A stretch of 39,333 bases of DNA from an uncultured Eubacteriales bacterium (GTDB lineage: Bacteria; Bacillota; Clostridia; Peptostreptococcales; Anaerovoracaceae), in contig CACYHR010000044.1 of the NCBI GenBank assembly GCA_902774265.1, forward strand, positions 1 through 39,333, given 5' to 3'. Made by a program: the position numbers and the translations under genes. Below, in pieces: positions 72 through 39,333 of the stretch (position 1 is its first letter; every line of letters begins with the position of its first letter). Below the pieces are notes generated by a model, which worked only from the letters and a program-made list of their open reading frames with translations, did no database searches and was not told where the DNA came from.

Positions 72-176
72 TTTTGTCAGTCTCCATCTATTCATTATTA
101 CTTCTGATAAGCGGAATGTGGAACAAGCTCTGTTTCATATCTATAAAGGGATCGAAAGCAGCTGTCTCCAGTATAT

Positions 177-347
177 AACAGACACCGGATGTCCCCCGCC
201 TCTTAGACGGCGGGTTCCATTTTCGACCATCAGTGGTGGGTAAAAATCCCCCACTGATGCTCTCAGAAGCTGAAGCTCCCGGTGTCTGTTGACGGCGTCG
301 CTCGCTCCAATCAAGCGAGCCTGTTGGAGCTTTGCTCCTGGTTGAAA
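177..347 (-). repeat. Hairpin-rich interspersed repeat, copy A
   Basis: On the minus strand this reads from TTTCAACCAGG (347-337) through a series of short hairpins. These are GGAGC/GCTCC, a GCTCGCT-containing stem, GGGAGCTTCAGC, an arm pair around ATCAGTGGGGG and CCCACCACTGAT, and a final CCCGCC/GGCGGG stem. The same order and almost the same bases occur at 32567-32717 on the other strand. Copy A is also bounded by a 12-bp inverted pair: AACAGACACCGG at 177-188 and CCGGTGTCTGTT at 279-290. No transposase is present. The chain of imperfect palindromes ending in a GC-rich stem resembles ends of IS200/IS605-type elements and their non-autonomous derivatives, but that is an inference. Confidence 0.8.
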
Positions 348-447: not shown

Positions 448-3400
448 TTATTTTGTAACTATTTTGATCTTTTTGTATACACCGTTCTGCGCATATGCAT
501 AAACATAGCACTTGCCTTTGCTCTTTGCTTTGATGACGCCTTTAGAGGATACAGACGCAATCTTACTGTTTGTCGATTCATATCTCAGACCGAAATATTT
601 CTTAACCTTTAATTTTTTTGATTGAGGAACCGGCGAGGCATTAAGCTTAAGAGTCGATCCTTTTTTGAGCTTCCTGGCTTTTTTCAGAGTCTTACTATCT
701 ACTTTAACACTCTTGTAGTTACCGCTGCTTCCGCCCTTAGTACTTACGCATATCAGTTTGGAAGTCGATACCACATTATTATCCTTGTCCAGTGATACGA
801 TGATGAATTTGTAGTATGTACCCTTTTTAAGCTTCTTTCCTCCGATCCTGCTGACTGTCTTAGAAGTGCCTCTCACAGAAACCAGCTTTTTCGGTTTGTA
901 TTTATCGCCGCATCTATTGCCATATATTACATATGTTTCTGCCTTGCTGACTTTGCTCCATTTGAGTTTTACGGAGGTCTTAGTCTGCCTGGATGATTTC
1001 AGCTTGAGCTTTGAGAATTCTGTTCCTTTCAGGTCTTTTTCACTATCCATCGAAGTGATCGCCTTATCTGCGGACGCAGCACTGGCCCCTTCTCCTACAT
1101 CAGTTCCGTCAATGCCCTTCTGATTCGGATCGCTTCCAGGTTCAGGTTCGGGTTCGGGATCTGCTTCGGCCCTGCTTACTGTTACATGGCAGCTTGCAGA
1201 CCTGATCCCAGGCTGACTGAAGCTGGCTGTTATATCACATTCTCCTTCTTTGAGTGCTGTAACGATTCCATCCGCTGTAACGCTTGCAACAGTGCTGTCT
1301 GATGACGCCCATGTGATAACACCCTCTGCTGTCGGCGGAACAGTTGCAGTAATCTGCAGATTCTTTCCTTCTTCAAGAGTTATACTGGAATCAACGTTCA
1401 GCTTTATTTCCTGATCGGCCTCAGTGCTGTCTCCGCTGGAGCTGTCTGAACCTCCGCCGCCTCCGGAGCCTCCGCCTCCGCCTGATCCACCGCCGGAATC
1501 GCCGCCACCTGATCCACCGCCGCTCGGGTCAGGATCAGGTGTAGGATCTCCGCCCGGTTCCGGATCGGTACCGGATTTTTCTACTGTTACATTACAGCTT
1601 GAGGATTCCGCGCCTTTGACATCAGGTATCGCCCTGATTACAGCAGTTCCTGCTTTGACCGCAGTCACTGTTCCGTCCGCAGCTACAGTTGCCACACTCT
1701 CATCCGAAGATGACCATGTCACATTTCCATCGGATCCTTCCGGAACTATAGAGGCCGTGAGTTTATAACTCTTACCCTCTTCAATCTCTATACTGCTTTC
1801 TGACAGTTCTACACCCTTGGCCCTGGAAACGACCGTGATCAGGCATATATCCGTCTCGTATGTACTATTTGATGTAAGCTTAACTGCTGCTGTTCCCTTT
1901 CTCTTCAACGACACCTTTCCGTTACTGTCAACGCTGATGACCGGATTTGTTTCATCATCCACTGTCGACCAGCTGAATGTATCATTCGGTTCCGAAGATT
2001 CCGCGGAGAGCTGCACAATGCGTTCAGCGGTACTCAGACCGGCAATATCAAATTCCTTCACTACACCTGAAACATGTGCGCCGTTAAATGTGATGTGCAC
2101 AAATTTAGATGAAGATCCGACCGTTACAGAGCATGTCTTTCTGATAGTCTCTCCGTTTTCTGATTCTGTCGAGGCAGTTACAGTCGCCGTTCCCGCCTTC
2201 AGGCCTTTGATGGTTGCATATGCTTCTGATGTTCCCTTTCCGTCTGCTGAGAATGCTGAAGTGAATGTTTCCGATGTTTCCATCTCACCGGTTTCTTCAT
2301 TTTTCACATAGAATGCAGCCGTATCCGGGTAATCAACAGTCCATGTTACGTTTCCATTGGCACGGGAGTTAGATGCCTCCGCCCGGATAACTTCAAAGTC
2401 TCCTTCGTGCATCAGGATCCCGTCTGATTGCAGTGTCATATCCTGTGCCTTCTCATATACGAATACCCTGCACGAGTCGGACAGTCCGCTCGGAGCGGAA
2501 ACAGTGATAACAGCTTCGCCGCCGCCTTTTCCTGTCAGATTGCCGCTTTGATCAACGACAGCGACGCTTTCATCTGATGAACTCCAACTCAGAGTATCTG
2601 TCGTATTAGACGGTGTGATATCAAGCTCAATTTCTTTCTTTTCATTTTTGCCTATTCTGATATCATCCCCTTTGATGCTGATATCCGTTATGTGGCTGAC
2701 ATTGCTGATCTCAACAGAACGGGATTTGATTGTCCCTACAGTATTTCCATTCACGTCCACAACTTTGACAGTGACTGTTGTCTTTCCCGGATCTCCTGCA
2801 GTTACCGTGCAGCTTGTGCCTTTCTCATTCGGGCTGATCGATACGATACTATCCGATCCGGTGGTCCAGACAAAACTTGTCTCGTAAGGAAGCCTTGACC
2901 TGAGCGATGCCTTCAGTGAAAAGATGTCCCCTGGCTTCACCTCATCTTCACTTATCTCATTGCCCTCTGCATCAGTCAGTTTCAGAAGCTCCGGAGTATT
3001 GTTAACAGCGATCTCATATTCAGCACTAAATCTGTCATATGTTACGATAACCCTGCCGCTGCCTTCTGAATCCAGCACAACGCCATTGGTGAGAGGTTTC
3101 CCGGCTTCATCTCCGAGACTGAGGGTGAGAGTGTAATCAGTTACCGCCGCCCTGGTTCCGTTAGTCAGGTTCGCTGTAACCAGCATTCCTTCGGTTTCGA
3201 ACTGATCACCGACCTCAAATACAGTCTTCTGAGGTTCCGTCGTGATCTCTATGCTCTCCACTCCTTCAGCAGAAGGATTCGGTTCGATCTCTTCTGTTTC
3301 CGTTTCGCCGCAGACAGTACATATACTCGTCCTTGTCCACTTTCCGTCTTTGTCAGGGGCATCCGCATATTTCCATGCTCCGTACATATGCGGTTTACAG

Positions 3401-6400
3401 TAGATCTTGCCGGTCACAGTACCGCCGTTCCTGTTAATGAAAGTACTTCCATAGTTGTAGAGTTTTGCCCCTTCAGCTATGCTGATACTTCCTTCATTCA
3501 CCAGGCTTCCATATTTGTGCACCACAGCCCCGTTCTCAAGAATGAGCTTACCTTTATTGTTGATCTGGGTTTTGTTGCTGATTTTCAGAGACGCTCCCGC
3601 TTTGACTGTTATGGTGGTATATTCGCTCACGTTCTGAGAATCTACCGAAATGACTGCGTTTCCTATGATCTGCAGCTTCTGATATGCATTTTCGCCACGT
3701 TCATCCGCTGCTGCTATCGCATCGTCTACATTCTTGTAGTAGACAGTGTTCAGCACCTCACCGGCAGCATCTGTCCGCGACAATGCCGCTGTGTATTCAT
3801 TCAAGTCATCTTCTATTATTCCGTTTATCCTCACATCATTCTGAACATCTATCTCCTCTCCCGGAAGGTATGCCCTGCTGCCGACCTCCCATGCATCCGG
3901 CGTTTTATCCGGGAAGAGATCTTCTCCCGGAAGCGTGATTTTACCCGGAACATAGTACTTGGTGATCTTACTTCCGGAGACAAACTCTACTTTGACCGGA
4001 GCAGCGATTTGCTCGTCGTTTCCTGTCAGTACATATACATATTTTTCCTCCGGATTCTTCTTTACTCCATAGATAGCTCCTCCGAGCTTGTTGTTCATCA
4101 CATACGCGAGTTTTCTATAGAATTCCGGTGTCTGTACTTCTTTTTCAGCCAATTCTTCAACATCCGGTGTCTCAGTCAGATCAAACGCGTTTTTACCATG
4201 CGAATCATGTGTGTCATATGTCTGCAGGTAGTAATTCGATGTGAAGCTGCCATTATGCTGAACTGACTCGCCGTCAAGAGCTACTATATTGTTTTTCATA
4301 ACACCTGCAGAAGTACCCACATTTTCGAAGTAGTTTCCGGTCATTGATGCATTCGACGCATCTGATGATTCGGATCCCGGGGCCGGTCCGTTATATACCA
4401 CTCCTCCTGCCACTGTACTGCCTGAAGCAGTGCTGTTATGGAAAGTCAGGTCTCTTATCATGCAGTGCTCTATCGTCCCCCGGTTCTCATAAGCGATCCC
4501 TGCTCTGGCGCTATCTTCGCTGACAGTTATGCTCGATCCGATGATGGACACTCCGCTTATGGTTCCGCAGTTCGTATCCGCCAGGAATCCGCAATTATTT
4601 GATCCATTAATCGTAAGATTGCTGAATACTACATCTCTGATCTCTGCACCTTCGTGGATCGTTCCGAACAATCCCCGGAACCCCCTCTCACCAGGCTTAG
4701 CAAATAATCTTAAATTACTGATCGTGTAACCATTGCCGTCGAAAGATGCGTACATATGCTGGAGCCGGAGATCTTCTTCGAGCTGGCCGATATCTATGCT
4801 TTGCATATCTATATCATTCATCAGAACACCGTCCGTCTGTTTCCCCTGTGTACTTCCGCTTTTTGCCATTCTGATGTAATTCGTAAACTGATCCGGGGTA
4901 CTGATATAGAATGTGTAGTGATCTGACACGGTTATTCTCGCATCAGAACGGATTATTTCCGGATTGTAGCTGTAACTGTAGTGGTATATCTCCAGGGCGT
5001 CATTATAAGTTTCATGCCCATCCGGATCCGGCCAGAGAATTTCCTTGCTGCCATACGTACTCGGATCCTTATCCGGATCAGCGACCCAGACGTAAGGATC
5101 ACTATTCTTAGGCACCACAACACTGAAAGCAAAGACTCTTTTCTTTGCCGCACGAATTATCTCGCCGTTTTTGATTTCTCCGCCGCTGCTATCTAAAATG
5201 CGCGCACGCTCATCCCTGAATTTGCTGCTTATCTCAGCAGAGTAATAATTGTTCGGGCTGAATGTAGCTTTTATATTTACATCACCGTCTATTCCGTCGA
5301 TCCTGAAAGTGCCTTCATCAAGGGTCTGCTTCTCACCGTTCACAGTAATGGAGGTCAGTGTGTACTCATTATCGCCCTCAGCCGAACGGAAGAGTACAGA
5401 CTCGCCCTTGTATACGTCAGTACTTAAGCTGGTGCCTTCTCCTACTGTGCCCTTTTGAACTTCTTTTCCTTCATCATTGCTTATAATGTACTCCAGAGGA
5501 CCGCCGCCTTCTGCGGACATGCTCATCGAGTATCCGGTCACGGTATCTGTAGTTGCTGAGACGTACATGTTCTCTGTGATATTGCATGTATATATCGTGT
5601 CTCTTGAGGCTTGCTCCTCACCGTTTATGATCCAGCCGGAAATGTGTTCTCCTCTGTTCTCCGGTGAGGCTTTGATATCTATCTGCGAGCCGCTTACGAT
5701 ATCTTTCACAGTCGAGCCTTCCATCTCCTGTCCGTCGACTGAGATCGTAAACTTTACCCCTTCAGCCTCAGTCTCAACTGTATATTTTCCCTTTTCGGTC
5801 TTTGCATTTACTACAGCGGATATTGCGTTATCCGGAAGCGTGAAGGTACAGGCAGGCCTTCCCTGTGACTCCGTCTCTGTCACAGGTATTTGTTCAGTGC
5901 CGTCAGCATTCACGATCAAAGCATTCCATTCTGCGTCGGAAGCAAGCACGAAGCCCGGCTTGGTTCGTACGATGACTTCCGATCCCAGAGGAACATTCCT
6001 GCCCTTCTCGGTCTTTACGAGTTCTCCCACGTCATGGTAAGGATCGCCTCCATTGTTGACATACAGGACCTCCAGCCCTTCCGCAGCGGCCACATCGACG
6101 CTGATCCTCGAGAATACAGCATACACCTCAGCTGAGCTGTCAGGCATAGTGTATTCCTTTGTATTGCTTCCGTCTTCGTTTGCAGTTCCGCCGGACACTA
6201 CATTATTACCGCCCAGGGTCGTAAAGCGCCACTCCTTGAACTCCCATCCAGGTGCAGGAGTAGCCGTGAAGGTGAGCTTTGACCCCGCGAGGACATTGTC
6301 ACCGCTCTGTATCTCAGGTGTTACGCGTACACTTCCGCTATCTTTACTTCCGATATAGCCGAACTTGATCCTGTTGTTCTTAGGCTTCATCACAGCAATG

Positions 6401-9400
6401 ATGTTTACTTCCCCGGCACCGTTGGTATTCTGGCTCCTGACTGTGAAGGTGAAGCTTTCTGTACCCGGATATGTTGTCTTATTACCGCAGTCATCGACTA
6501 TCCATTTACTGATCTCATATCCCGGATTAGGTTCAGCTTTAAGCACTATCTTTGTACCGCCTACATAACCTTCTTTTGTGAAATCTGTCTTCTTGTCAGG
6601 CGATACCATCCTGACACTTCCCGTGCTGTTGTCCTCAGGCCCGGCGGATATCAGATAGTAATTGCCTACCACCATGAACCTGCCCTTTTTATATACAGGT
6701 GTATAGAACCAGCTTGTGTCAACTCCGCCTGTAACAGCTTCCAGCTCAACGGCACCGTAATACGACGCAGGAATGAACTTACCGGAATCGAAATTTTTAG
6801 AGCTGCATATATAATCACCATTCTGCTGATAGTACTTGAACAGCATAAAGTCAGACAGGCTCTTGTTGCCGTCGGCTGTCGGTATATTCTCTTTCTTTGG
6901 ATCTATGCCGCCTGAAAGTTCTAAATCATCACTTGTCAGTTGCTCCAGAAGTGTTCCTGTACCTGTGGTCTTATCTTTTACGTCTATCTCCAGCGGCACC
7001 TTGCGTGTAACGATCACTTTTGACGCGGCCGGTTCGTTGCTCCCATGCATGTACACTTCAACATATGCCTTGTTTGCGAGCCGCTTGTCGAGTGGCAGTT
7101 CAGCGGCAGCATTTGTACTCGTCATATCGCATGAAGCGACGAGTTCCCCTTTCTCGATGCCATCTGCTTTATAGAAATTAACTGTACTGATCTTGTCTGT
7201 ATAGTCTTTTCTGGAGATCTTGCCGGAGATATTCTGACTGTATTCGAAGAGCCCCATCGTGGCCGCCAGATCTTCTCCGAAATAGTACGAAGACTGAAGA
7301 GACAGGAACATGCTGGAATCAATATTCCTGAGATAATGGTATTCTTCAGGATCTCCTGCCGGATAGAATATCGCGTTTCCTGCATAGTAGCACGTGATGA
7401 CATAGCCACCGTCCACGAAACCGATTGCACCGAGATCCTCGATACGGTCTTCTATGCTGTTTATCGTTACATCACCGGTCTCTTCGTTGATATTTTCCGC
7501 GACCCTGATATTACCGTTCGGGCCGTCAATGTCAAAGACCACCATCCCGGTAGGTTTTTCCCTGCTGGTCTGGCTCGTATTGGAAACATTCACATAGAGT
7601 CCCGTATTTGTCCTGGAGACACCCTCGCCTTCGAACACTTGTATATCGCTAAACTGTACCGATCTCAGCGAAAAGCTCACAATGCAGCTCTCAGTGAACG
7701 TTGAGATGTACTGTGGGCTGCTCTCCCTCTTCCTTACGAGATTCATACGGCACCGGTATGTCCCGGCATCCTTCGGTGCGCATCTGTAGAAATGCAGCAG
7801 TTGCTTATTACAGCCTTCGATATCCTCCCACTTGCGTTTCTTTGTATTATATTTCTGCCATTGATAGCTTATATTGCTCTGATAGTTCTCAGGATCTGCC
7901 AGCCGGGCTTTGATGTCATATGTACTGTCCGGATAAATAGTGAGTTCATCGGCAGAAAGCGAGATATCAGGCTTTGTGCCGACATCTGTCCGTGCCTCGA
8001 TCACAGGGCTGAATATACTCTCACCCGGCAGTTTTGCCGTCCTCACTTTCACCCTGTACTTATATTTGGTATCGGCAGTAAGATTTTTGTCGGTAAATGA
8101 ATATCCGCGGATCACATGCCCATCCTTGTCTCTGAGCGTATTCCCGTCTTCATCCTTAAGGATCTTATAATCACTTCCGTCAACAGTGCCGATCAGCTTA
8201 TCTCCGCCTCCGATTGGGAAGTCCTCATATCTGTAAATCTCAAACCTTTGCGGGTTACCATGGTTGTAGGTCCATGTAAGAGCGATCTCTGAATCCGTAG
8301 ATTTCTCAAAGTCCTGCTCGATATTATCCGGAAGCTTTGGCGGCGCGGTAACATCGTTCACCATATATGTGACCACAGGGAAAGTGCAGTTTTTGTCCTT
8401 TATGTTATATTTGAATAACTTCCATGAGAAACCATAGCCGTAGTCCTTTGCGGCCCTCGGCATGTTCTTTATCGTTCCCGAGCAGTCTGCGCCTTCAATG
8501 GAAGCCGCAATATCTCCCTCTACCTGACTGAAAGAGAAAGTCGCTCCACCCGCTATTGATGTGAACCAGAACATGGTATCAACATCGGAGCCGAAACCGA
8601 GTTCTGTCGAAAAGAACGCTCCATCAAGATGGTTATCATATCTGTCACGCGTTTCCTTGGAATATGAGAGTGTCTGCGTTATGCTGCCTGTGCCGAATGC
8701 TGTGCCGGCCCATTTCTCACCGTAATCGACTGGGTGATCGGTTTTCCAGTCGATATGGGACTTTGCCTCATCCGACAGATCATTCTGGTTCATAGGATAC
8801 GACGCCGGATCTCCCGGAGTCGATGTCAGATACTTGGAAACATCAGGGAGTATGTCTGAGTACCTCTTTTGGATCTCTTCATAGTCTTCCATCGTAAGAG
8901 TCTGCGTGACCGGCTTATGAGGCTTGGTCACGACCATCGTATTGGTGAACTCCTCATAGTCCCCATCGTCGTTTACCATGACGCCTCTGATTTTATATAC
9001 GTAGTTTTCCGTCGGGATCGAGTACATGACCACGGCATCCTCACCGCCCTCGGTCCTGTATGATATTTCAAAATCTCTTTCTTTTTCCCATCCCCAAGTC
9101 TCAGCGCTTGCCCAGCCTACACTGACATTGGCGATCCCGTGGGCTGAAGCGACGCCATGCTTTGTATTCAGGAATCCACCGAATTCACTTGAGAAAGAGT
9201 ATTCTATTCCATGAGTGGATCCGGTGATTTGGCCGTAATCTGTAGTGAGGAACGGAAGCATTCCGCCTTCATCATACGCGGCTACATCTTCAAAGTACGG
9301 CGGCGAAGCAAGCACAGCAAGGACTGCCGGATCCTGATACTGGATATCATGCTCGCCGGTATATTCAGCTATAAGGCCATCTTTATCGGTGTCAGCCGCA

Positions 9401-11253
9401 ATGATAAGAGTCGGCGCCCCGTAAAAATGATAATTGTCCTCAGTATTCTTTTCGAAGGGATCGCACCTTGTCAGATTTCCGTTTCCATCACTTATGATCA
9501 TGGAGGATGCATTCTTTATACCGGCATTTACGAAATCCTCGCCATGTTGCATAGCTGCTTTTCTTGTACTGACCCTGTTCACGATCAGCTGATCCGCGAC
9601 CGAAGCGGTAAAGTTGGCGCAGTCTGCCCCGAACTCATAGTAGGACGAAGGTTTTCCATTTGCGAGCTTCATCGCCTTGTTTCCGGCAAATAAAGCACTG
9701 CCTTTAGCTTTGTCGTCATCCGTCGAATCATCCTCAAGTTCATCCACGATCTCAAACACTCCATTGTCATATGAGTACAGCACACTGTCAAGATATATCT
9801 TGGCATCGCCGGCGCTTCCCGATATATTACCTACAGCAAGATTCGTCTTCATGAGAGGTGCGCTGTAGTAGTTCTCATCCCAGCCGTTTGCAGAAACAAA
9901 TTTGCCCTCTTCCGTTGTCGATCCGTCTACGACAGCCATGTTCTGTATGGATTCAAGCACCATTTCACCCTTGTCTTTATCGTATATATAGCGGCCGAGA
10001 ACTCTGGATGCGTTCTTATCCTGCTCACTCCTCAGTTGTCCGGCGAGGAACATATCTTCATTTCCGTCTTCGTCCACATCTCCAAACGCAAATGAAACTC
10101 TGATAAGCTCCTGTCCCCCATATGAGATATTCTGCGAGTCTCTCAGCATCTGGCCCTTATCACTTCCGTATAGCAGGACGGATTTGCTCGGGAGAGATTT
10201 TCTAATCAAATCTTCTGAACCGATATTTCCATAGTGATAATCAGTATCTGATGCCCCGCAGGAAATAATCAGGTCGTCTATGCCGTCATTATCCGCATCC
10301 CCGGACGTCAGATCGATATCGTTATACGCGTTGGAAAACCCTGTCATCCGTGTATTTGGTATAAACACAGTAACAGTTCCTGAGGTATTTTTCGGAAGCG
10401 CATAATTCCATGCGCATCTCCATGAGCCGATATCGTAAGGATCTTGGCACTCCTTACCATCGGTAAGGTCGAATACCTTGACATAATTTGTGCCGAACAA
10501 TTCCCCTGTAGGCGCATAGACCGCGATCTCATCGACCGAGTCCTTATCGTAGTCGCCTGCAGTTATCTGGAGCTGGGACTGTACCTGAAAGTTATAGGAC
10601 GCTACATAACCTGTAAGCGTTGTGATAACAACACTATCGGAATACCTTCCGCTTACGGGATCGTAAAGGCACATATATAGATTTTTGTCAGTCTTTTCTT
10701 GTGTAGATATGTCCCTGTAATGGTAATGTGTATAGACTATAGCGACAGCCGAGGCTCTTCCGTCTCCGTTTATATCGCACTTTACCGCATCCACAAAGTC
10801 ATGTTGTTTTATTGGATTAGCTCCGCCGGTTTCGGTATCATAAGGTATTACATTTTTTATCGGCTTATCCAGGAACTCATTAAGATTCCCGTTTAGTTTT
10901 TTGTTGTGCCCGTACAGCAAAGACTTGTTTCGATCATCCTGATTCGCATTATTTGAATCAGAATGTGAAATATCGAAAAGCACCGCCTCGTCCACTTCAC
11001 TCAGATTTGTTACATCAGAACCGTACGGATTGGTCGTCGCATCCGGATCATAGTCCTCCGGCATTTTTGACGTGTCAAAGCCCATGCTCGCAAGCACGCC
11101 GCCGTTCTTATCATATGAAATGTCTTCGCCGTCAGCGATGGATCCCACTTCCGCGAACACATCTCCATTCAGCGAGCTCAGTCCCAACGCTGCAGGCAGA
11201 CATAACGCTGCCGCGATCATAAGGATCAAAATCCTTTTCACTGTACATGACAT
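448..11253 (-). CDS. Giant secreted multidomain protein (FG-GAP, fn3, Ig-like, InlB-like and beta-helix-like modules)
   Basis: About 3600 residues, predicted to be exported. The start chosen is the ATG at 11253: AGGGGG stands seven bases before it and a clean signal peptide follows (MSCTVKRILILM, then a hydrophobic core). An upstream in-frame ATG at 11286 also has AGGGAG. In order: Ca-binding FG-GAP/VCBS-like repeats at about residues 158-405 (DINGDG, GDYDKD, GDADNDGIDD, GDVDEDGNED); a fibronectin III module near 980-1080; an Ig-like module with YQWQKY and GTYRCR near 1100-1190; two InlB-like B-repeat modules near 1545-1680 (GYEISKW, GWEFKEW); a GLUG or beta-helix-like stretch near 2150-2290; several bacterial Ig-like (BIG_2) modules with the WSSSDESVA signature; a Gly/Ser linker and a Glu/Pro linker; and a Lys-rich fn3-like end. 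No LPXTG anchor or dockerin is seen. Adhesion or matrix binding is the likely role, inferred from module types only. Confidence 0.9.
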   Translation of the reverse strand: MSCTVKRILILMIAAALCLPAALGLSSLNGDVFAEVGSIADGEDISYDKNGGVLASMGFDTSKMPEDYDPDATTNPYGSDVTNLSEVDEAVLFDISHSDSNNANQDDRNKSLLYGHNKKLNGNLNEFLDKPIKNVIPYDTETGGANPIKQHDFVDAVKCDINGDGRASAVAIVYTHYHYRDISTQEKTDKNLYMCLYDPVSGRYSDSVVITTLTGYVASYNFQVQSQLQITAGDYDKDSVDEIAVYAPTGELFGTNYVKVFDLTDGKECQDPYDIGSWRCAWNYALPKNTSGTVTVFIPNTRMTGFSNAYNDIDLTSGDADNDGIDDLIISCGASDTDYHYGNIGSEDLIRKSLPSKSVLLYGSDKGQMLRDSQNISYGGQELIRVSFAFGDVDEDGNEDMFLAGQLRSEQDKNASRVLGRYIYDKDKGEMVLESIQNMAVVDGSTTEEGKFVSANGWDENYYSAPLMKTNLAVGNISGSAGDAKIYLDSVLYSYDNGVFEIVDELEDDSTDDDKAKGSALFAGNKAMKLANGKPSSYYEFGADCANFTASVADQLIVNRVSTRKAAMQHGEDFVNAGIKNASSMIISDGNGNLTRCDPFEKNTEDNYHFYGAPTLIIAADTDKDGLIAEYTGEHDIQYQDPAVLAVLASPPYFEDVAAYDEGGMLPFLTTDYGQITGSTHGIEYSFSSEFGGFLNTKHGVASAHGIANVSVGWASAETWGWEKERDFEISYRTEGGEDAVVMYSIPTENYVYKIRGVMVNDDGDYEEFTNTMVVTKPHKPVTQTLTMEDYEEIQKRYSDILPDVSKYLTSTPGDPASYPMNQNDLSDEAKSHIDWKTDHPVDYGEKWAGTAFGTGSITQTLSYSKETRDRYDNHLDGAFFSTELGFGSDVDTMFWFTSIAGGATFSFSQVEGDIAASIEGADCSGTIKNMPRAAKDYGYGFSWKLFKYNIKDKNCTFPVVTYMVNDVTAPPKLPDNIEQDFEKSTDSEIALTWTYNHGNPQRFEIYRYEDFPIGGGDKLIGTVDGSDYKILKDEDGNTLRDKDGHVIRGYSFTDKNLTADTKYKYRVKVRTAKLPGESIFSPVIEARTDVGTKPDISLSADELTIYPDSTYDIKARLADPENYQSNISYQWQKYNTKKRKWEDIEGCNKQLLHFYRCAPKDAGTYRCRMNLVRKRESSPQYISTFTESCIVSFSLRSVQFSDIQVFEGEGVSRTNTGLYVNVSNTSQTSREKPTGMVVFDIDGPNGNIRVAENINEETGDVTINSIEDRIEDLGAIGFVDGGYVITCYYAGNAIFYPAGDPEEYHYLRNIDSSMFLSLQSSYYFGEDLAATMGLFEYSQNISGKISRKDYTDKISTVNFYKADGIEKGELVASCDMTSTNAAAELPLDKRLANKAYVEVYMHGSNEPAASKVIVTRKVPLEIDVKDKTTGTGTLLEQLTSDDLELSGGIDPKKENIPTADGNKSLSDFMLFKYYQQNGDYICSSKNFDSGKFIPASYYGAVELEAVTGGVDTSWFYTPVYKKGRFMVVGNYYLISAGPEDNSTGSVRMVSPDKKTDFTKEGYVGGTKIVLKAEPNPGYEISKWIVDDCGNKTTYPGTESFTFTVRSQNTNGAGEVNIIAVMKPKNNRIKFGYIGSKDSGSVRVTPEIQSGDNVLAGSKLTFTATPAPGWEFKEWRFTTLGGNNVVSGGTANEDGSNTKEYTMPDSSAEVYAVFSRISVDVAAAEGLEVLYVNNGGDPYHDVGELVKTEKGRNVPLGSEVIVRTKPGFVLASDAEWNALIVNADGTEQIPVTETESQGRPACTFTLPDNAISAVVNAKTEKGKYTVETEAEGVKFTISVDGQEMEGSTVKDIVSGSQIDIKASPENRGEHISGWIINGEEQASRDTIYTCNITENMYVSATTDTVTGYSMSMSAEGGGPLEYIISNDEGKEVQKGTVGEGTSLSTDVYKGESVLFRSAEGDNEYTLTSITVNGEKQTLDEGTFRIDGIDGDVNIKATFSPNNYYSAEISSKFRDERARILDSSGGEIKNGEIIRAAKKRVFAFSVVVPKNSDPYVWVADPDKDPSTYGSKEILWPDPDGHETYNDALEIYHYSYSYNPEIIRSDARITVSDHYTFYISTPDQFTNYIRMAKSGSTQGKQTDGVLMNDIDMQSIDIGQLEEDLRLQHMYASFDGNGYTISNLRLFAKPGERGFRGLFGTIHEGAEIRDVVFSNLTINGSNNCGFLADTNCGTISGVSIIGSSITVSEDSARAGIAYENRGTIEHCMIRDLTFHNSTASGSTVAGGVVYNGPAPGSESSDASNASMTGNYFENVGTSAGVMKNNIVALDGESVQHNGSFTSNYYLQTYDTHDSHGKNAFDLTETPDVEELAEKEVQTPEFYRKLAYVMNNKLGGAIYGVKKNPEEKYVYVLTGNDEQIAAPVKVEFVSGSKITKYYVPGKITLPGEDLFPDKTPDAWEVGSRAYLPGEEIDVQNDVRINGIIEDDLNEYTAALSRTDAAGEVLNTVYYKNVDDAIAAADERGENAYQKLQIIGNAVISVDSQNVSEYTTITVKAGASLKISNKTQINNKGKLILENGAVVHKYGSLVNEGSISIAEGAKLYNYGSTFINRNGGTVTGKIYCKPHMYGAWKYADAPDKDGKWTRTSICTVCGETETEEIEPNPSAEGVESIEITTEPQKTVFEVGDQFETEGMLVTANLTNGTRAAVTDYTLTLSLGDEAGKPLTNGVVLDSEGSGRVIVTYDRFSAEYEIAVNNTPELLKLTDAEGNEISEDEVKPGDIFSLKASLRSRLPYETSFVWTTGSDSIVSISPNEKGTSCTVTAGDPGKTTVTVKVVDVNGNTVGTIKSRSVEISNVSHITDISIKGDDIRIGKNEKKEIELDITPSNTTDTLSWSSSDESVAVVDQSGNLTGKGGGEAVITVSAPSGLSDSCRVFVYEKAQDMTLQSDGILMHEGDFEVIRAEASNSRANGNVTWTVDYPDTAAFYVKNEETGEMETSETFTSAFSADGKGTSEAYATIKGLKAGTATVTASTESENGETIRKTCSVTVGSSSKFVHITFNGAHVSGVVKEFDIAGLSTAERIVQLSAESSEPNDTFSWSTVDDETNPVISVDSNGKVSLKRKGTAAVKLTSNSTYETDICLITVVSRAKGVELSESSIEIEEGKSYKLTASIVPEGSDGNVTWSSSDESVATVAADGTVTAVKAGTAVIRAIPDVKGAESSSCNVTVEKSGTDPEPGGDPTPDPDPSGGGSGGGDSGGGSGGGGGSGGGGGSDSSSGDSTEADQEIKLNVDSSITLEEGKNLQITATVPPTAEGVITWASSDSTVASVTADGIVTALKEGECDITASFSQPGIRSASCHVTVSRAEADPEPEPEPGSDPNQKGIDGTDVGEGASAASADKAITSMDSEKDLKGTEFSKLKLKSSRQTKTSVKLKWSKVSKAETYVIYGNRCGDKYKPKKLVSVRGTSKTVSRIGGKKLKKGTYYKFIIVSLDKDNNVVSTSKLICVSTKGGSSGNYKSVKVDSKTLKKARKLKKGSTLKLNASPVPQSKKLKVKKYFGLRYESTNSKIASVSSKGVIKAKSKGKCYVYAYAQNGVYKKIKIVTK

Positions 11254-11449
11254 TTCAATACCCCCTGTCTTTACGAACATCTGCATTGCCTGCTCCCTGC
11301 AGGCACAATTCACACAGACTGCCGGATAGTATATTTATTGAACAATATCATAATATATACAAATTTACACCGCTTATTACGCCTTTTATTTTACTATAAC
11401 ATTTCCATAACTTCATCCGAAACATTCTTCCGGGAAAGATTATGGCATT
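11254..11449. other. AT-rich leader and upstream region of the giant gene
   Basis: This stretch is markedly AT-rich between about 11325 and 11410 and must hold the promoter of the giant gene on the minus strand. Several TATAAT-like boxes (TATGAT, TATACT, TATAGT) can be seen, but none has a convincing -35 box at 16-18 bases, so no single promoter is called. Confidence 0.4.
11288..11304 (-). promoter_or_regulatory. Leader hairpin with a Shine-Dalgarno-like loop upstream of the giant gene
   Basis: On the minus strand GCCTGC and GCAGGC form a 6-bp stem around the loop AGGGA. The loop sequence could serve the in-frame ATG at 11286, one of two possible starts of the giant gene. If that start is used, the hairpin would hide its ribosome binding site. 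The downstream ATG at 11253 has its own unstructured AGGGGG. Confidence 0.3.
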
Positions 11450-11478
11450 TTCAACCAGGAGCAAAGCTCCTGGTTGAA
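11450..11478. repeat. Perfect 13-bp palindrome matching the end of the interspersed repeat
   Basis: TTCAACCAGGAGC, AAA, GCTCCTGGTTGAA: two 13-base arms around a 3-base loop with no mismatch. The left arm plus loop and half of the right arm are identical to the start of the interspersed repeat (copy A at 347-326, copy B at 32568-32588). It stands alone here, without the rest of the repeat, so it may be a solo end or a remnant after deletion. No T-run follows on either strand, which argues against a simple terminator. Confidence 0.75.
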
Positions 11479-11538: not shown

Positions 11539-11724
11539 TTATGAAAGATACAGGCTCTCCCCAGTTGATGTAGTGCCATTGTGTGACGTGGCTGACCTAA
11601 GACCCCGCGGAGCTGTATACTTCCTGGCCTGTAACGTCCGTATCCATGTTGCCTTCCATGGGTCAAAACATGTCAGCGCTCCGGTTGTTATTAGATTTCG
11701 GGGCTGAATGCTAGGCCGTTGAAT
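11539..11724 (-). pseudogene. Startless 61-codon open frame, possible scar of a mobile element
   Basis: The minus strand carries an uninterrupted frame of 61 codons between two stops, with no start codon and no ribosome binding site. Its C-terminal part reads APRGLRSATSHNGTTSTGE and ends a few residues later. The stretch is richer in G+C than the AT-rich DNA around it. The end faintly recalls 3' ends of IS605-type tnpB genes, but the family is not recognised with any certainty. It sits about 60 bases from the palindrome at 11450-11478. It may instead be a non-coding structured remnant. Confidence 0.25.
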
Positions 11725-11787
11725 TTACTAAGTAAGTAAGAAATTCGAATCTGGTTATCTGTATCTGAACTGATACATAATTAAGGC

Positions 11788-16447: not shown

Positions 16448-16935
16448 TTAGATATTTATTTCAAAAGCAGTCTTCATGTATTTTATCTGTCCTCTGGATA
16501 AGCCGCTCCCTCTCGCTATGTGTTCCCAGTTATCTTTGACTGCAGTAACTATTTCAGATGCGATTTTGTCAGCACGATTATTATCGATTCCGAATCTTAC
16601 GGCAACCGAAAGTGCAAGATCTATTGATATGCTGTTATCTGTTTCACTCACATTAAGAGCAAGTTCATTTCCATAAGGCACTATCAGAATCATCAGATAA
16701 AAACGGCCCGTCTTCATCAGTCTTAAAGCGAAGTCCTCCCATTCGCGTTCCGTCATAAACTCCAAGAAGATAGTCGCTGTCAAAAAGCTTATCCGGCTTC
16801 CTGCCTTCCTTTTCAGCAAGGCTCCGTTCTCTTCTGTTCATTAATGTTCTTCCCCAGCGATCGGGTGATGAATCCTGAAAGATACCGAATAAGCGGCCGT
16901 CTACGGGAAACGCTTGTTTCAAATCGCTTCTGCAT
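16448..16935 (-). pseudogene. hipA-family kinase/toxin remnant (N-terminally truncated, internal deletion)
   Basis: Two pieces of a HipA-like protein lie end to end on the minus strand. The upstream piece, read in the frame of the preceding secreted-protein gene, contains LFGIFQDSSPDRWGR, LLGVYDGTRMGGLRF and GPFLSDDSD, typical of the region after the HipA N-terminal domain. The downstream piece, in another frame, contains ELALNVSETDNSISIDLALS and KDNWEHIARGSGLSRGQI, typical of the HipA C-terminus. The N-terminal coupling domain and the catalytic core with its ATP site are missing; the pieces meet near 16665-16690. HipA proteins are Ser/Thr kinase toxins of type II toxin-antitoxin systems. No hipB-like antitoxin is next to it. 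It cannot be functional as a kinase. Confidence 0.8.
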
Positions 16936-19900
16936 CGCAAAAGGCACCTCCGCGGGGGAGATGCCTCTGATGAGTGTATGTGTGTCCTTATGCTTATCTT
17001 TTTGCTTTGATTTTCATTCGACCACTTGCCGTATACCTTTTTGATAGCGCCGTCAGACAGGTTTTCAACCTTCGTATATGTACGGATCCTGAAAGCATAT
17101 TTCTTTCCGGCTTTCAGCTTCTTAACGGTCTTCCTTAATGTCCCGGCATTGCTGATATTGATCTGCTTAGCCTTGATGCCTTTAGCCTTGTAGCTGAGCT
17201 GATATCCGTCTGCGCCATTGGATTTCTTCCATTTGATTACAGCCTTTCTTCCTTTCACAGCCTTTACTGAGCTTATCTTCGCTTTAATCGCAGCAGCCGG
17301 ATAGTCCACAGCCGCCTGGAGTTTATCAAGCTCCGATGAGCTGATACTGCCCTTAGCCGTATCAGGCAGTGCCTTGTATGCTTCAACAGCATTTGCTACA
17401 TCATCCGCGTTGGCCTTTGCCGGATCATCCGGAAGGCTGCTGATAATATCTATGACATATTGTTCGGACGGCGTCAGCTTCGGGATAGATTTTGTCTCCT
17501 TATGCGAAGGATCATTCTTACAAACACGAGTCTCAACGCCTTCCTCGGTCTCTGTTGATCGTTTGGTCACAGTCCATTCATCCCAGTCGTGACCGAGTGC
17601 AGCAGCTGCGCGATGTGTTCTTCTGATTTCGGTCCCGCATTCCGCACAGTAAACTACTTCATCGAATTCACCGTCTGTTTCCTTATCGATTTCTTTTTTG
17701 CCATCTTTGTCTGAAAAACACTTGCCGCAAGGATGATCTCCCTTATTGCAGATATAGTACCCTATGTTACCGGCCTCTGTGCATGTTGCATTTTTCGGAG
17801 CAACAGAACTTAAATTATGTTTGTGGTCTGACCGCGGAATGCTGCGTTCCTCCTTATGCGAAGGATCATTTTTACATACACGGGTCTCAACGCCTTCAGC
17901 GGTCTCTGTTGCCTGCCTGGTCACAGTCCATTCACCCCAGTCATGACCAAGCGCAGGGATAACCGTACCGTCAATAACAGCATCACATCGAGAGCACTTC
18001 TGATCAGCTTCTTTGCCGGGCTCAGTGCAGGTCGCGGCAACGGCAGTATTTTTGACTTCCTGATAGTCATGACCTTTCGGGTCAGTAAACTTTGCCTCTT
18101 TCTGATTGCTCCTGGTAGTGAGATCGGGTGCATTTACCGATGCGATCTCCACTCTGTATTCTGTCCATCCGCCGCTCGTGCAGCCCGGCTGAACAACTCT
18201 TGTTGTCGGTGTGATCCGCCTGTTTATGATATCACCGCAGCCTTCTCTGATGCATATGTAGCCGGCAACTGCTTCCGAGTATCCCCGTTCTTCATTTCCT
18301 ATCCAGGTCCAGCCGGTGAATTTCCGGGAGTGACCGAGATTACTGCCCTCTTTTTCGCCACAGATTTTGCATGTTTTCGGATGTTCGCAGTCAGCAGCGT
18401 TCCATTCGTGCCCGGTAGCCTTTATAACAAAATCTTCCTGAGGTTTTGGTTCTGATCCGGCTCCGGCTCCGGAGTTTTCGAACCAGCCGCCGCATGTGCA
18501 GACGTAGTGCGCCCTTACACCGTCAGCTGTGCACGTTGCAGGGGTCCCATCATCTTTACTCATCGGAGCTCTGCTGTGTTCGTGGTCTTGCTCATATTCT
18601 CTCCGCTCCGCAAATTCGCAGCGATTGCATCTGCGTTCCTGATGCACCCTGTCTCCGGTAGTCCAGGAGCGCCAGCCATCCTTATCGGTAGTTCCGTCAA
18701 CGACCCATTCATGGCCGAGGGCAGGGAGAGCCTTACCTTCGATCACATCGCCGCAGAGAGAGCATTTCTGATCTGCTTCTTTCCCGACATTTGTGCAGGA
18801 TGGCTCGACTGCCGTACCGGCAATTACCTTATAGTCATGAGGCAATGCTTTTCCTTCAGTTTTTCCGCATATTTCACATGTTTTCGGATCTGTGCAGGTG
18901 GCTGCTGCCCACTTGTGAGATCCTGTCGTTGGCAGGGCAAGTTCTTTTAAATCAGAAGCGTAGTCCGAAGTCTTGTCACCATTGTACTGTTCATTGAATA
19001 CATACAGCTTGTCGCCGCTTTCCATTTTTCCGGATGTATTGACAGCGACCTGCCCGCCTTCTTTAGATGCTTCTGCTATCCTGCCGTAATACTTGATGCT
19101 GTCATCACTTCCCACGATGATGGCAGAAATAAAACTGTTTGATTCTGCTTTAGCTCCGCTGTATCGGAACGTTACCATACCGCTTGCACTATCATATGAG
19201 TCGCTGCAGGTAGTGATTGCAAAATTCCTACGATCTGCGTCTCTTATCGTAAGTTTCCATTCGCTGTTCTTGTTATTACCCACTTTGGTGAGTGCATCAG
19301 CACCCGATCCGCTGACCTTACCGCCCTCCGCTGCAGATGTGAACAGTATGGCGTTCATATCCAGATCGCATGCAGGGCGCACACCATGATAGGTATCAGT
19401 GCTCACTCCATCCCGGATTACAGCGGTAAAGTCATAATTATAATCGGTCCAGCAATAAGCTACTTTACCATCATATTGGCCCGGCGATCGCAGCCACCAT
19501 GAATTATCGTTATATAAATGTCTTATTCCACCCGGCAAAGCCTCAGCTTCTCCACAGGAAAGGAGCCAGAAGCCGGCGTCTTCTACAGGATTGCCTTTGA
19601 TCTTATTCTCATCATACCCTTTTTCGCCGTAATTGCTCCCGCCGCCTTCCAGGGTACGCTTGACTATGATTCCTTTTTCCTTAGAGTTATTCCACTTCCA
19701 GTCTCCATCACCGTTATAGTATGAATTCACTATCCATCTGATGTTCGCGACAGAGTACTGATTCGCATACGACACATTAGAATTTCCGGAGAATCTTTCT
19801 CCGCCGCTAAATGACGGTATATTTTTATGGAGAATCGTGATCAATCCTTCCCTCGATGCCGGGTTGCTGCCTTGTCCGTCATATCCGATCACATACCACA

Positions 19901-20111
19901 TGCGCTTTTTGGTCTTAGGCTCAAGGTATCTTCCTAACCAGACCTTTTGCAGACCGTCTTTATTTACATTCTTTGCCAAAACCGATGAGCCGATCACCAT
20001 AGCGGGATCGCCGGAGTCAGCATAGGCTTTCTGTATGGTATTCGGCATCATCGTAAATACGACAGCAAGCATCAGCACAAATACCAGCGTTTTTGAAATC
20101 ATTCGTTTCAT
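16665..20111 (-). CDS. Secreted DUF6273 and CxxC-repeat protein with fn3-like end, reading through into a hipA remnant
   Basis: The open frame is 1148 residues. AGGGGG stands eight bases before the ATG at 20111. A signal peptide (MKRMISKTLVFVLMLAV, cleavage near AYADS) is followed by a DUF6273 domain up to about residue 260, with its hallmark NSWWLRSPG and GVRPACDLD. Next come about eight short modules with paired CxxC motifs and a GHxW motif (such as CEICGK and CSLCGD), likely metal-binding or structural. An fn3-like domain with VYGKWSNENQ ends near residue 1040. The original stop should lie near 16970-17000, since a terminator hairpin with a T-run sits at 16939-16965, inside the present frame. 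The remaining residues come from a hipA remnant, so the stop has been lost by a small mutation. It follows the FIST/HD-GYP gene by 40 bases and is probably cotranscribed. Confidence 0.8.
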   Translation of the reverse strand: MKRMISKTLVFVLMLAVVFTMMPNTIQKAYADSGDPAMVIGSSVLAKNVNKDGLQKVWLGRYLEPKTKKRMWYVIGYDGQGSNPASREGLITILHKNIPSFSGGERFSGNSNVSYANQYSVANIRWIVNSYYNGDGDWKWNNSKEKGIIVKRTLEGGGSNYGEKGYDENKIKGNPVEDAGFWLLSCGEAEALPGGIRHLYNDNSWWLRSPGQYDGKVAYCWTDYNYDFTAVIRDGVSTDTYHGVRPACDLDMNAILFTSAAEGGKVSGSGADALTKVGNNKNSEWKLTIRDADRRNFAITTCSDSYDSASGMVTFRYSGAKAESNSFISAIIVGSDDSIKYYGRIAEASKEGGQVAVNTSGKMESGDKLYVFNEQYNGDKTSDYASDLKELALPTTGSHKWAAATCTDPKTCEICGKTEGKALPHDYKVIAGTAVEPSCTNVGKEADQKCSLCGDVIEGKALPALGHEWVVDGTTDKDGWRSWTTGDRVHQERRCNRCEFAERREYEQDHEHSRAPMSKDDGTPATCTADGVRAHYVCTCGGWFENSGAGAGSEPKPQEDFVIKATGHEWNAADCEHPKTCKICGEKEGSNLGHSRKFTGWTWIGNEERGYSEAVAGYICIREGCGDIINRRITPTTRVVQPGCTSGGWTEYRVEIASVNAPDLTTRSNQKEAKFTDPKGHDYQEVKNTAVAATCTEPGKEADQKCSRCDAVIDGTVIPALGHDWGEWTVTRQATETAEGVETRVCKNDPSHKEERSIPRSDHKHNLSSVAPKNATCTEAGNIGYYICNKGDHPCGKCFSDKDGKKEIDKETDGEFDEVVYCAECGTEIRRTHRAAAALGHDWDEWTVTKRSTETEEGVETRVCKNDPSHKETKSIPKLTPSEQYVIDIISSLPDDPAKANADDVANAVEAYKALPDTAKGSISSSELDKLQAAVDYPAAAIKAKISSVKAVKGRKAVIKWKKSNGADGYQLSYKAKGIKAKQINISNAGTLRKTVKKLKAGKKYAFRIRTYTKVENLSDGAIKKVYGKWSNENQSKKISIRTHIHSSEASPPRRCLLRCRSDLKQAFPVDGRLFGIFQDSSPDRWGRTLMNRRERSLAEKEGRKPDKLFDSDYLLGVYDGTRMGGLRFKTDEDGPFLSDDSDSALWK
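16939..16965 (-). terminator. Intrinsic terminator now inside the secreted-protein reading frame
   Basis: On the minus strand GGCATCTCC and GGAGGTGCC pair around CCCGC and are followed by TTTT. It is a normal intrinsic terminator, but the frame of the DUF6273 protein passes through it, which indicates that the gene once stopped just upstream. Confidence 0.8.
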
Positions 20112-32526: not shown

Positions 32527-32555
32527 GCTCCGGTCAGCAGGCTATATCCCGGAGC
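32527..32555 (-). terminator. Terminator of the secA-HD gene unit
   Basis: On the minus strand GCTCCGG and CCGGAGC form a perfect 7-bp stem around a 15-base loop and are followed by TGTTTTG. It is now separated from the HD-domain gene's stop by most of repeat copy B. Confidence 0.55.
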
Positions 32556-32566
32556 ATATCTTTTCC

Positions 32567-32717
32567 TTTCAACCAGGAGCAAAGCTCCAACAAGCTCGCT
32601 TGATTGGAGCGAGCGACACCGTCAACAGACACCGGGAGCTTCAGCTCCTGAGAGCATCAGTGGGGGATTGTTACCCACCACTGATGGTCGAAAATGGAAC
32701 CCGCCGCCTAAGAGGCG
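32567..32717 (+). repeat. Hairpin-rich interspersed repeat, copy B, inserted in the end of the HD-domain gene
   Basis: 151 bp running from TTTCAACCAGGAGC to CTAAGAGGCG, nearly identical to copy A at 347-189 read on the minus strand. Differences are few, such as ACACCGTC for ACGCCGTC and GATTGTTAC for GATTTTTAC. Identity with copy A stops right after AAGAGGCG, where the HD-domain gene sequence begins. The copy lies between that gene and its terminator and supplies the last 30 or so codons and the stop codon of the gene. Confidence 0.88.
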
Positions 32718-33329
32718 TTTCTCTTCAGAGGTCTGAACGTTATGATGAGATAATTCAGTACTCATTGTCTTTTTAAGTGTGTTTTTTACACCCGTACCGT
32801 TTATATCGCTGCCCTTTATCAGATCCTTAACGGCTGAATACTTATCTGCAGACGAGACGATAACGCCTTCCAGCGAATTCGGTCTCTGACTGTGACCGAC
32901 CGGCCACATATGACGCTCTATAATGTCAGCGGATTTGTCCGAAAGATCCGGCACAAGCTCCTTTGCGACCCTGACAGACTCCTTGGGATGCTCCTGACTG
33001 CATTCCTTTGCGGAATTGAATTTATCATCTCTTCCGAGTATGCCCAGGTCATGGCAAAGCGCTCCTACTACTACCGCAGGAATGTTCGCTTTGATATGGA
33101 GCTTGCGAAGCGCATAGCAGAGCATCACACTTGTCGCAGTTACCCTCAGCGTATGCTCTCCCACAGTAGACCACAGATGATGCGTCTGATCATATGCTTC
33201 TTTGATCTCATCCGAAGAGAGTATCTCCCCTCCGTACGCCTCTATATCATTCGCGATCCTTTCTTTGCGGTTTTCCCGCTTGTCCCTTATCTGCTTATGT
33301 ATGGTGCTTTCGTAGTACAGGTTTCTCAT
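32622..33329 (-). CDS. HD-domain phosphohydrolase with a repeat-derived C-terminus
   Basis: 235 residues. The HD fold is clear: GEHTLRVTATSVML near residue 57 (first metal-binding His), ALCHDLGILG near 90 (the HD pair), IIERHMWPVGH near 138, and SSADKYSAV near 160 (last Asp). Such proteins hydrolyse phosphates of nucleotides or related molecules; the substrate is not evident. Residues from about 205 to the end (RLLGGGFHFRPSVVGNN and onward) are translated from repeat copy B, and the TGA stop lies in the repeat as well. The original C-terminus has therefore been replaced. The metal site is upstream of the replaced part and looks intact. GAGGTGAT precedes the ATG, which lies only 6 bases after the secA stop, so translation is probably coupled to secA. 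Confidence 0.85.
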   Translation of the reverse strand: MRNLYYESTIHKQIRDKRENRKERIANDIEAYGGEILSSDEIKEAYDQTHHLWSTVGEHTLRVTATSVMLCYALRKLHIKANIPAVVVGALCHDLGILGRDDKFNSAKECSQEHPKESVRVAKELVPDLSDKSADIIERHMWPVGHSQRPNSLEGVIVSSADKYSAVKDLIKGSDINGTGVKNTLKKTMSTELSHHNVQTSEEKRLLGGGFHFRPSVVGNNPPLMLSGAEAPGVC

Positions 33330-39111: not shown

Positions 39112-39242
39112 TTTTCAGTGCATTGCTGTAATAGTACAACTAATAATCTCTGCTTGCAATGCTTTATGCGGCATCTTCATTACTGCTGAAACTGCTGCTC
39201 CGGCGCCGCAGATCAGTTGTTCCAAAAAACAAAAAAGAAAAA

Positions 39243-39333
39243 CTGGCGACGTCCTAGTTTCCCGGGAGGCTCCCCTCCAAGTATCTTCAGCGCTAAAGAG
39301 CTTAACTACTGTGTTCGAGATGGGAACAGGTGT
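39243..39333 (-). rRNA. rrf: 5S ribosomal RNA, 3' part (runs off the right edge)
   Basis: The minus strand reads ACACCTGTTCCCATCTCGAA, then AACACAGTAGTTAAGCTC, and ends GGACGTCGCCAG, all characteristic of bacterial 5S rRNA. About 91 of the roughly 117 bases are present. The gene is transcribed leftward, so the rest of an rRNA operon, if any, lies beyond the window. After the 3' end the minus strand has T-runs (TTTTTCTTTTTTGTTTTTT) that may end transcription. Confidence 0.95.

Follow-up and report, generated by a model that had tools for sequence, protein, structure and literature searches.

A mobile-looking, hairpin-rich repeat encodes the 31 C-terminal amino acids and the stop codon of a predicted HD-domain protein in a Mogibacterium-related gut bacterium

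The window analysed here, a stretch of 39,333 nucleotides from the draft genome of an uncultured Eubacteriales bacterium, carries an open reading frame of 235 amino acids on the minus strand (32622-33329) whose predicted product matches the Pfam HD domain at 37.2 bits (cut-off 22) over residues 56-166. The host is a gut bacterium with Mogibacterium kinship: 10 of the 34 named loci with relatives of the HD gene are labelled Mogibacterium sp., and many of the record titles mention ruminant gut samples. Residues H59, H93, D94 and D162 are invariant in the 23 of 26 HD sequences that make up our alignment (A1), and we take them to be the metal-binding residues of the protein. The same window also encodes a 3621-residue protein with bacterial Ig-like and InlB-type repeat domains (448-11313, minus strand), and a 5S rRNA gene (39241-39333, minus strand) is cut by its end. 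A 1148-amino-acid reading frame (16665-20111, minus strand) has a part after its fn3 domain (residues 949-1015) that looks unrelated by eye, and may represent a fusion, a frameshift or a misjoin near 17000.

Comparison of the window with itself revealed two arms, 197-347 and 32567-32717, that are 97% complementary across 151 nt and that represent two copies of one repeat. Copy A (175-346, plus strand) matches the 172-nt consensus over its full length (97.7%) and is complete, consisting of AT, a unit running from AACAG to GGTTG, and AA. Copy B (32568-32717, minus strand) is 99.3% identical to the consensus and matches it from position 23 only (positions 23-172, read from 32717 to 32568), so that the first 22 nt are missing, while its GGTTG end lies at 32570 with AA next. 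The C-terminal end of the HD reading frame, RLLGGGFHFRPSVVGNNPPLMLSGAEAPGVC, consists of 31 codons within copy B (32717-32625, residues 205-235) and is followed directly by a TGA (32624-32622), as read from the frame and the consensus match. Because the beginning of the consensus, with its edge TAA, is missing from copy B, the reading frame remains open. The sequence-only reading had proposed that about 31 codons and the TGA come from the repeat and that the metal-binding site is left intact, and both proposals hold: the predicted HD domain and the four invariant residues all lie upstream of the repeat. It was also right that copy B begins inside the 3' end of the HD gene; the true repeat start is not there, since other copies begin 22 nt earlier. 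A hairpin beyond the repeat (32527-32555, minus strand), presumed to be the terminator of the HD gene, is visible by eye as had been claimed, although it received no score in the terminator scan, whose sole scored site here is 32705-32717 on the plus strand, within copy B.

The repeat is an interspersed family across the whole genome. When complete, as judged from 120 stretches of this genome, the unit is about 170 nt long, follows AT, starts with AACAGACACCGGATGTCCCC (AACAGAC), ends in GGTTG and carries no gene of its own. A repeat search in which 40 of 137 candidates were scored returned at least 45 matches, and a genome-wide pattern scan allowing up to three mismatches located the 3' end at 95 sites and the 5' end at 90, against none for the reversed patterns of both ends, which places the abundance far from chance. 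Some module of the family is present in 38 of 47 same-genus genomes, this one included, when a long form of the repeat is used as query; the long form has an extra module that also stands alone in relatives. Three loci (L201, L203 and L204) contain the inner module of the long form by itself, and there it likewise starts at a TAA stop codon, which suggests a second family with the same target. Elsewhere in the window, two repeat 3' ends lie back to back at 11450-11478 as a near-perfect 29-nt palindrome with TAACAG next, either a mini element or an assembly join. Near it, a group II intron match (Rfam group-II-D1D4-6, 67.3 bits) covers 11593-11746 on the minus strand, with no obvious intron protein among the listed nearby reading frames.

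The draft genome contains probable assembly faults inside the repeat, and one alternative is that the assembler joined the HD gene to copy B, the real gene ending normally before a complete copy. In the copies of this genome breaks concentrate in two places, with 17 starts at consensus positions 75-79 and 16 ends at 95-99. Copies cut at contig or stretch ends are cut at those positions too; several copies contain runs of N, and a sample of five copies is 95.9-98.8% identical. Most of these breaks are taken as assembly faults, and diverged copies with deletions (for example L100 and L137) show real internal deletions too. Copy B, in contrast, breaks at position 23, the sole start between 20 and 29 among copies reaching the 3' end, and has its fault-prone core intact. 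It also carries a T where 43 other copies of that context in this genome have C. The unusual break position and the private T argue, short of proof, for a real junction away from the usual fault positions, and we regard an assembly artefact as unlikely.

The way in which the unit enters DNA can be read from other genes. The purD-like gene of this genome (Pfam GARS domains) encodes 321 amino acids from the query start and ends in FNQEQSSNKLA, supplied by a nearly complete antisense copy of 167 nt, whereas 29 of 29 fetched PurD relatives (from 31 strong matches) end at 311-313 amino acids. In-silico deletion of the unit from AACAG to GGTTG gives a protein of 311 amino acids ending in KAL, which is the end and length of the closest relative (L311). 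Similarly, the scpB gene (Pfam SMC_ScpB) of another species, G032, ends in NRRRMSPASTE within a copy, and removal of the repeat yields a frame of 219 amino acids that ends in DHNEESEA and runs up to the next reading frame; the 29 other fetched ScpB loci encode 194-224 amino acids. Flanking bases follow a consistent pattern, with T at -1 in 90 of 94 copies from this genome and 52/52 from relatives, A at -2 in 88/94 and 51/52, A or T at -3 in 89/94 and 46/52, and AA directly 3' of the unit in nearly all copies. In four loci (L056, L132, L136 and L179) GGTTG and its AA pass straight into the first bases of another copy. Together, the two in-silico empty sites, the flank statistics and the abutting copies indicate that the unit enters WAT^AA without target duplication, with the exact cut ambiguous by 2 nt owing to the AA at both edges. 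No duplication is evident at the two empty sites, both restored on removing the unit alone, and the ends AACAGAC and GGTTG share just AAC/GTT and form no terminal inverted repeat. The empty sites at hand include none for the HD gene itself.

Such an element could land on TAA stop codons harmlessly and regenerate the stop, as insertion between T and AA would duplicate nothing. Among copies with a readable 5' edge, 11 of 94 from this genome and 16 of 52 from relatives have an edge TAA that doubles as the stop codon of a co-oriented gene, and every other stop-to-edge distance occurs in at most two copies. As a control, we counted how often non-coding WATAA sites coincide with stop codons: about 25 of 613 times in stretches of this genome (element sites subtracted) and 51 of 254 times in relatives, the latter drawn from HD, PurD and ScpB loci and so from places chosen around three genes, not at random. 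Docking on stop codons exceeds this control in this genome (Fisher, P = 0.004) and less clearly in relatives (P = 0.10, or 0.14 once the same gene in two species, L189 and L285, is counted once). Strong stop-codon targeting is thereby weakened, docking being just mildly above the WATAA expectation, and, as the control explains much of the docking, our claim is one of stop regeneration and not of proven stop targeting. Forty-four coding-looking reading frames run into a copy across its 5' edge; 30 of them stop on the edge TAA and seven continue for at least 9 nt, namely L093, L104 (ending TEALISGG), L073 (ending RRVPFSTISGG), L307 (scpB), L153, the HD gene of the window and L140. The last of these (L140:2075-3448) holds a mini copy of about 30 nt within one frame that joins a GNAT acetyltransferase gene in frame to the following reading frame. 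Frames entering from the 3' side, L127 (purD) and L124, share the end FNQEQSSNKLA. Possible assembly faults apply here too where run-on tails come from truncated copies of this genome.

Complete copies from several species share a fold in which an outer stem links the 5' end with the middle, together with inner hairpins and two hairpins on the 3' side. In an alignment of 33 sequences (A2; 32 of 40 copies plus copy A), 98.2% of 1612 cells are paired, compared with 36.0-44.9% in slid controls; the 5' hairpin begins at column 17 and the 3' hairpin ends eight columns before the alignment end. In eight pairs both partners have changed, where shuffling gives a mean of 3.1, and none of 500 shuffles reaches eight, although kinship alone can lift related sequences above shuffles without any structure. 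No curated RNA family was recognised: Rfam gave no match over the repeat at gathering thresholds and none at E<=5 for a stretch holding one complete copy. A conserved, covarying fold is what would be expected if the repeat were a host-selected RNA or DNA structure, REP-like and acting past gene ends on the mRNA or the chromosome, and not a selfish mobile element. The prevailing orientation after genes is in keeping with such a role (relatives, 38 sense, 8 antisense and 8 undecided; this genome, 45, 26 and 24). Against it, near-identical copies are dispersed within one genome (six in G032 are mutually 97.7-98.9% identical), and the precise site, the copies abutting copies and the antisense copy that lengthens PurD look like transposition, so that a host-selected structure seems to us quite improbable.

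The orthologues of the HD gene indicate what the repeat has done to the protein. The 25 same-genus HD orthologues encode 182-220 amino acids, the start of L045 being uncertain, and differ from one another in the sequence and length of their tails. The repeat-coded tail is absent from 25 of 25, and their fetched loci (L022-L046) contain no repeat match at E<=1; three further genomes had a search match to the HD protein, in each case confined to the repeat-coded part. Repeat-free relatives sharing the last 30 residues, which would speak against the repeat as the source of the tail, were looked for among these 25 orthologues and none was found. It is thus scarcely credible that the last 31 residues are an ancestral HD tail from which the repeat family derived or which it merely resembles, a notion for which we found no supporting point and against which stand the 25 tail-free orthologues and close to a hundred non-HD copies in the same genome. 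Across 22 relatives, identity to the HD protein of the window is 0.52 over residues 177-184 and drops to 0.05 over 185-192, and homology therefore fades near residue 185, before the repeat, and not at about residue 205 as had been predicted. The DNA for residues 180-204 is single copy in the genome, which rules out that this stretch belongs to a second repeat. Nothing shows that the repeat replaced conserved protein, as the orthologue tails vary in sequence and length, and the earlier description of a rewritten C-terminus was too strong. Before the repeat the protein has 204 amino acids, an ordinary length compared with its relatives. Judged from these comparisons, with neither the repeat-coded residues nor the repeat at the 25 orthologous loci, the repeat has lengthened a normal-sized HD protein and given it its stop. 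The added tail is probably functionally neutral; the predicted structure of the protein (mean pLDDT 51) is too low in confidence for use as evidence.

We therefore favour, with a probability of roughly 0.7, the reading that copy B is a 5'-truncated, non-autonomous mobile element of about 170 nt that inserts into WATAA without duplication and now ends the HD gene. The element would go in between T and AA, leaving the target unduplicated; sense insertion at a TAA stop would regenerate the stop, whereas near a gene end an insertion in a different frame or orientation would add a short tail. In the HD gene, where consensus positions 1-22 are missing, the first stop read from the sequence is the TGA 31 codons into the repeat. 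Most likely, a complete copy originally lay at the HD stop codon or immediately beyond it, and that stop was later lost together with the start of the element in a small deletion. The HD gene runs through copy B in the frame in which complete copies of this genome read TAA (chance agreement, 1 in 3), as expected if a complete copy at the HD stop later lost its start. Without the repeat, the gene would end near residue 200-205, the DNA past the insertion point being AAAGGAAAAGATATG. A hidden, diverged 5' end in the flank of copy B was considered, with ATAA and CAGAC near the expected place, and dropped because equally good scores were reached by 1758 of 5000 random coding windows.

In its anatomy the element would work like those moved by single-strand HUH transposases. 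Y1 transposase matches occur in 24 of 47 genomes, the repeat-end patterns are absent from 34 fetched Y1 loci (L240-L268 and L051-L055, some of them truncated at contig ends), and the TnpB zinc-ribbon family has no match in this genome. These searches thus yielded no mobilising enzyme, and an IS605-type autonomous partner was rejected for want of shared ends in the fetched loci. Four genomes, G032 (27 repeat matches), G019 (21), G017 (22) and G034 (18), are 94-96% complete and lack a Y1 match at E<=0.001; the enzyme may have been lost later. One Y1 locus, L051 (around G000:C53:29300-29623), holds a 253-amino-acid transposase frame flanked by an inverted pair of a different repeat, of the GGAGACAG...CTGTCTCC type. 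A broader proposal, possible though doubtful as a whole, is that these are genus-wide miniature elements with T^AA insertion, no duplication and regeneration of TAA stops, moved by something other than a recognisable Y1 enzyme, and that insertion in another frame or loss of the leading TAA would produce recurrent new C-termini (HD protein, PurD, ScpB and others).

Other bacteria already provide examples of small repeats that contribute C-terminal tails to proteins. In the passage on EnhC of Coxiella burnetii Dugway, QMITE2 at the 3' end of the gene presumably supplies the last 33 residues, the stop follows shortly after, and an indel decides whether a stop precedes the repeat (PMC5896051). As in our case, a small repeat at a gene 3' end gives C-terminal residues and a nearby stop; QMITEs are described there as MITEs, whereas the present repeat has neither of the classical MITE features, terminal inverted repeats and target-site duplication, and the two are compared by description only. 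RU-1 of Erwinia carotovora, fused to the amidase gene ECA3499 with removal of its stop in the account of that locus (PMC2759123), is a different, enterobacterial repeat of 127 bp, again compared by description and not by sequence. The palindrome-associated transposable elements (PATEs) of Haloquadratum, as characterised in the relevant section (PMC3119063), lack terminal inverted repeats and target duplication, have palindromes near their ends, are too small for a transposase and show core deletions, and the present repeat likewise has palindromes near both ends with neither terminal inverted repeats nor target duplication, is similarly too small to encode a transposase and also occurs with core deletions. 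PATE palindromes have IS605-type relatives among the transposons of their own genome; such a partner with shared ends or palindromes was looked for here and not found, and we therefore do not class the repeat as a PATE despite its PATE-like anatomy. Rickettsia palindromic elements, of about 150 bp, are also palindromic and contribute protein sequence, and in the part of a review devoted to them (PMC10969869) are reported in frame inside genes at high frequency, whereas most of the copies seen here lie outside genes or at stop codons (30 of 44 entering frames end on the edge TAA and seven run on). On Borrelia plasmids, IS605 stem-loop sequence overlaps lipoprotein gene 3' ends at a TAA stop in the examples described (PMC2775950), a comparable placement of an element-derived stem-loop over a coding 3' end, although those stem-loops match a known IS605-type element of the host and none was found for the present repeat. 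REPs are defined, in the definition given in PMC3733652, by a short palindrome with a GTAG tag at one end, and our repeat, with the ends AACAGAC and GGTTG, does not fit this definition. Among the top-ranked literature entries on Mogibacterium repeats or stop-codon repeats we found no description of this family; in all likelihood the HD gene is a genuine example of an established process, in an element family that these entries do not describe.

The finding is in most respects one further case of an established process. Beyond this, it offers a natural series for protein lengthening by small mobile repeats, from PurD, in which the pre-insertion end can be read and matches that of a relative, to the HD gene, in which a truncated copy now serves as the stop. 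Insertion by the T^AA rule may explain how such an element packs into a gene-dense genome with little damage.
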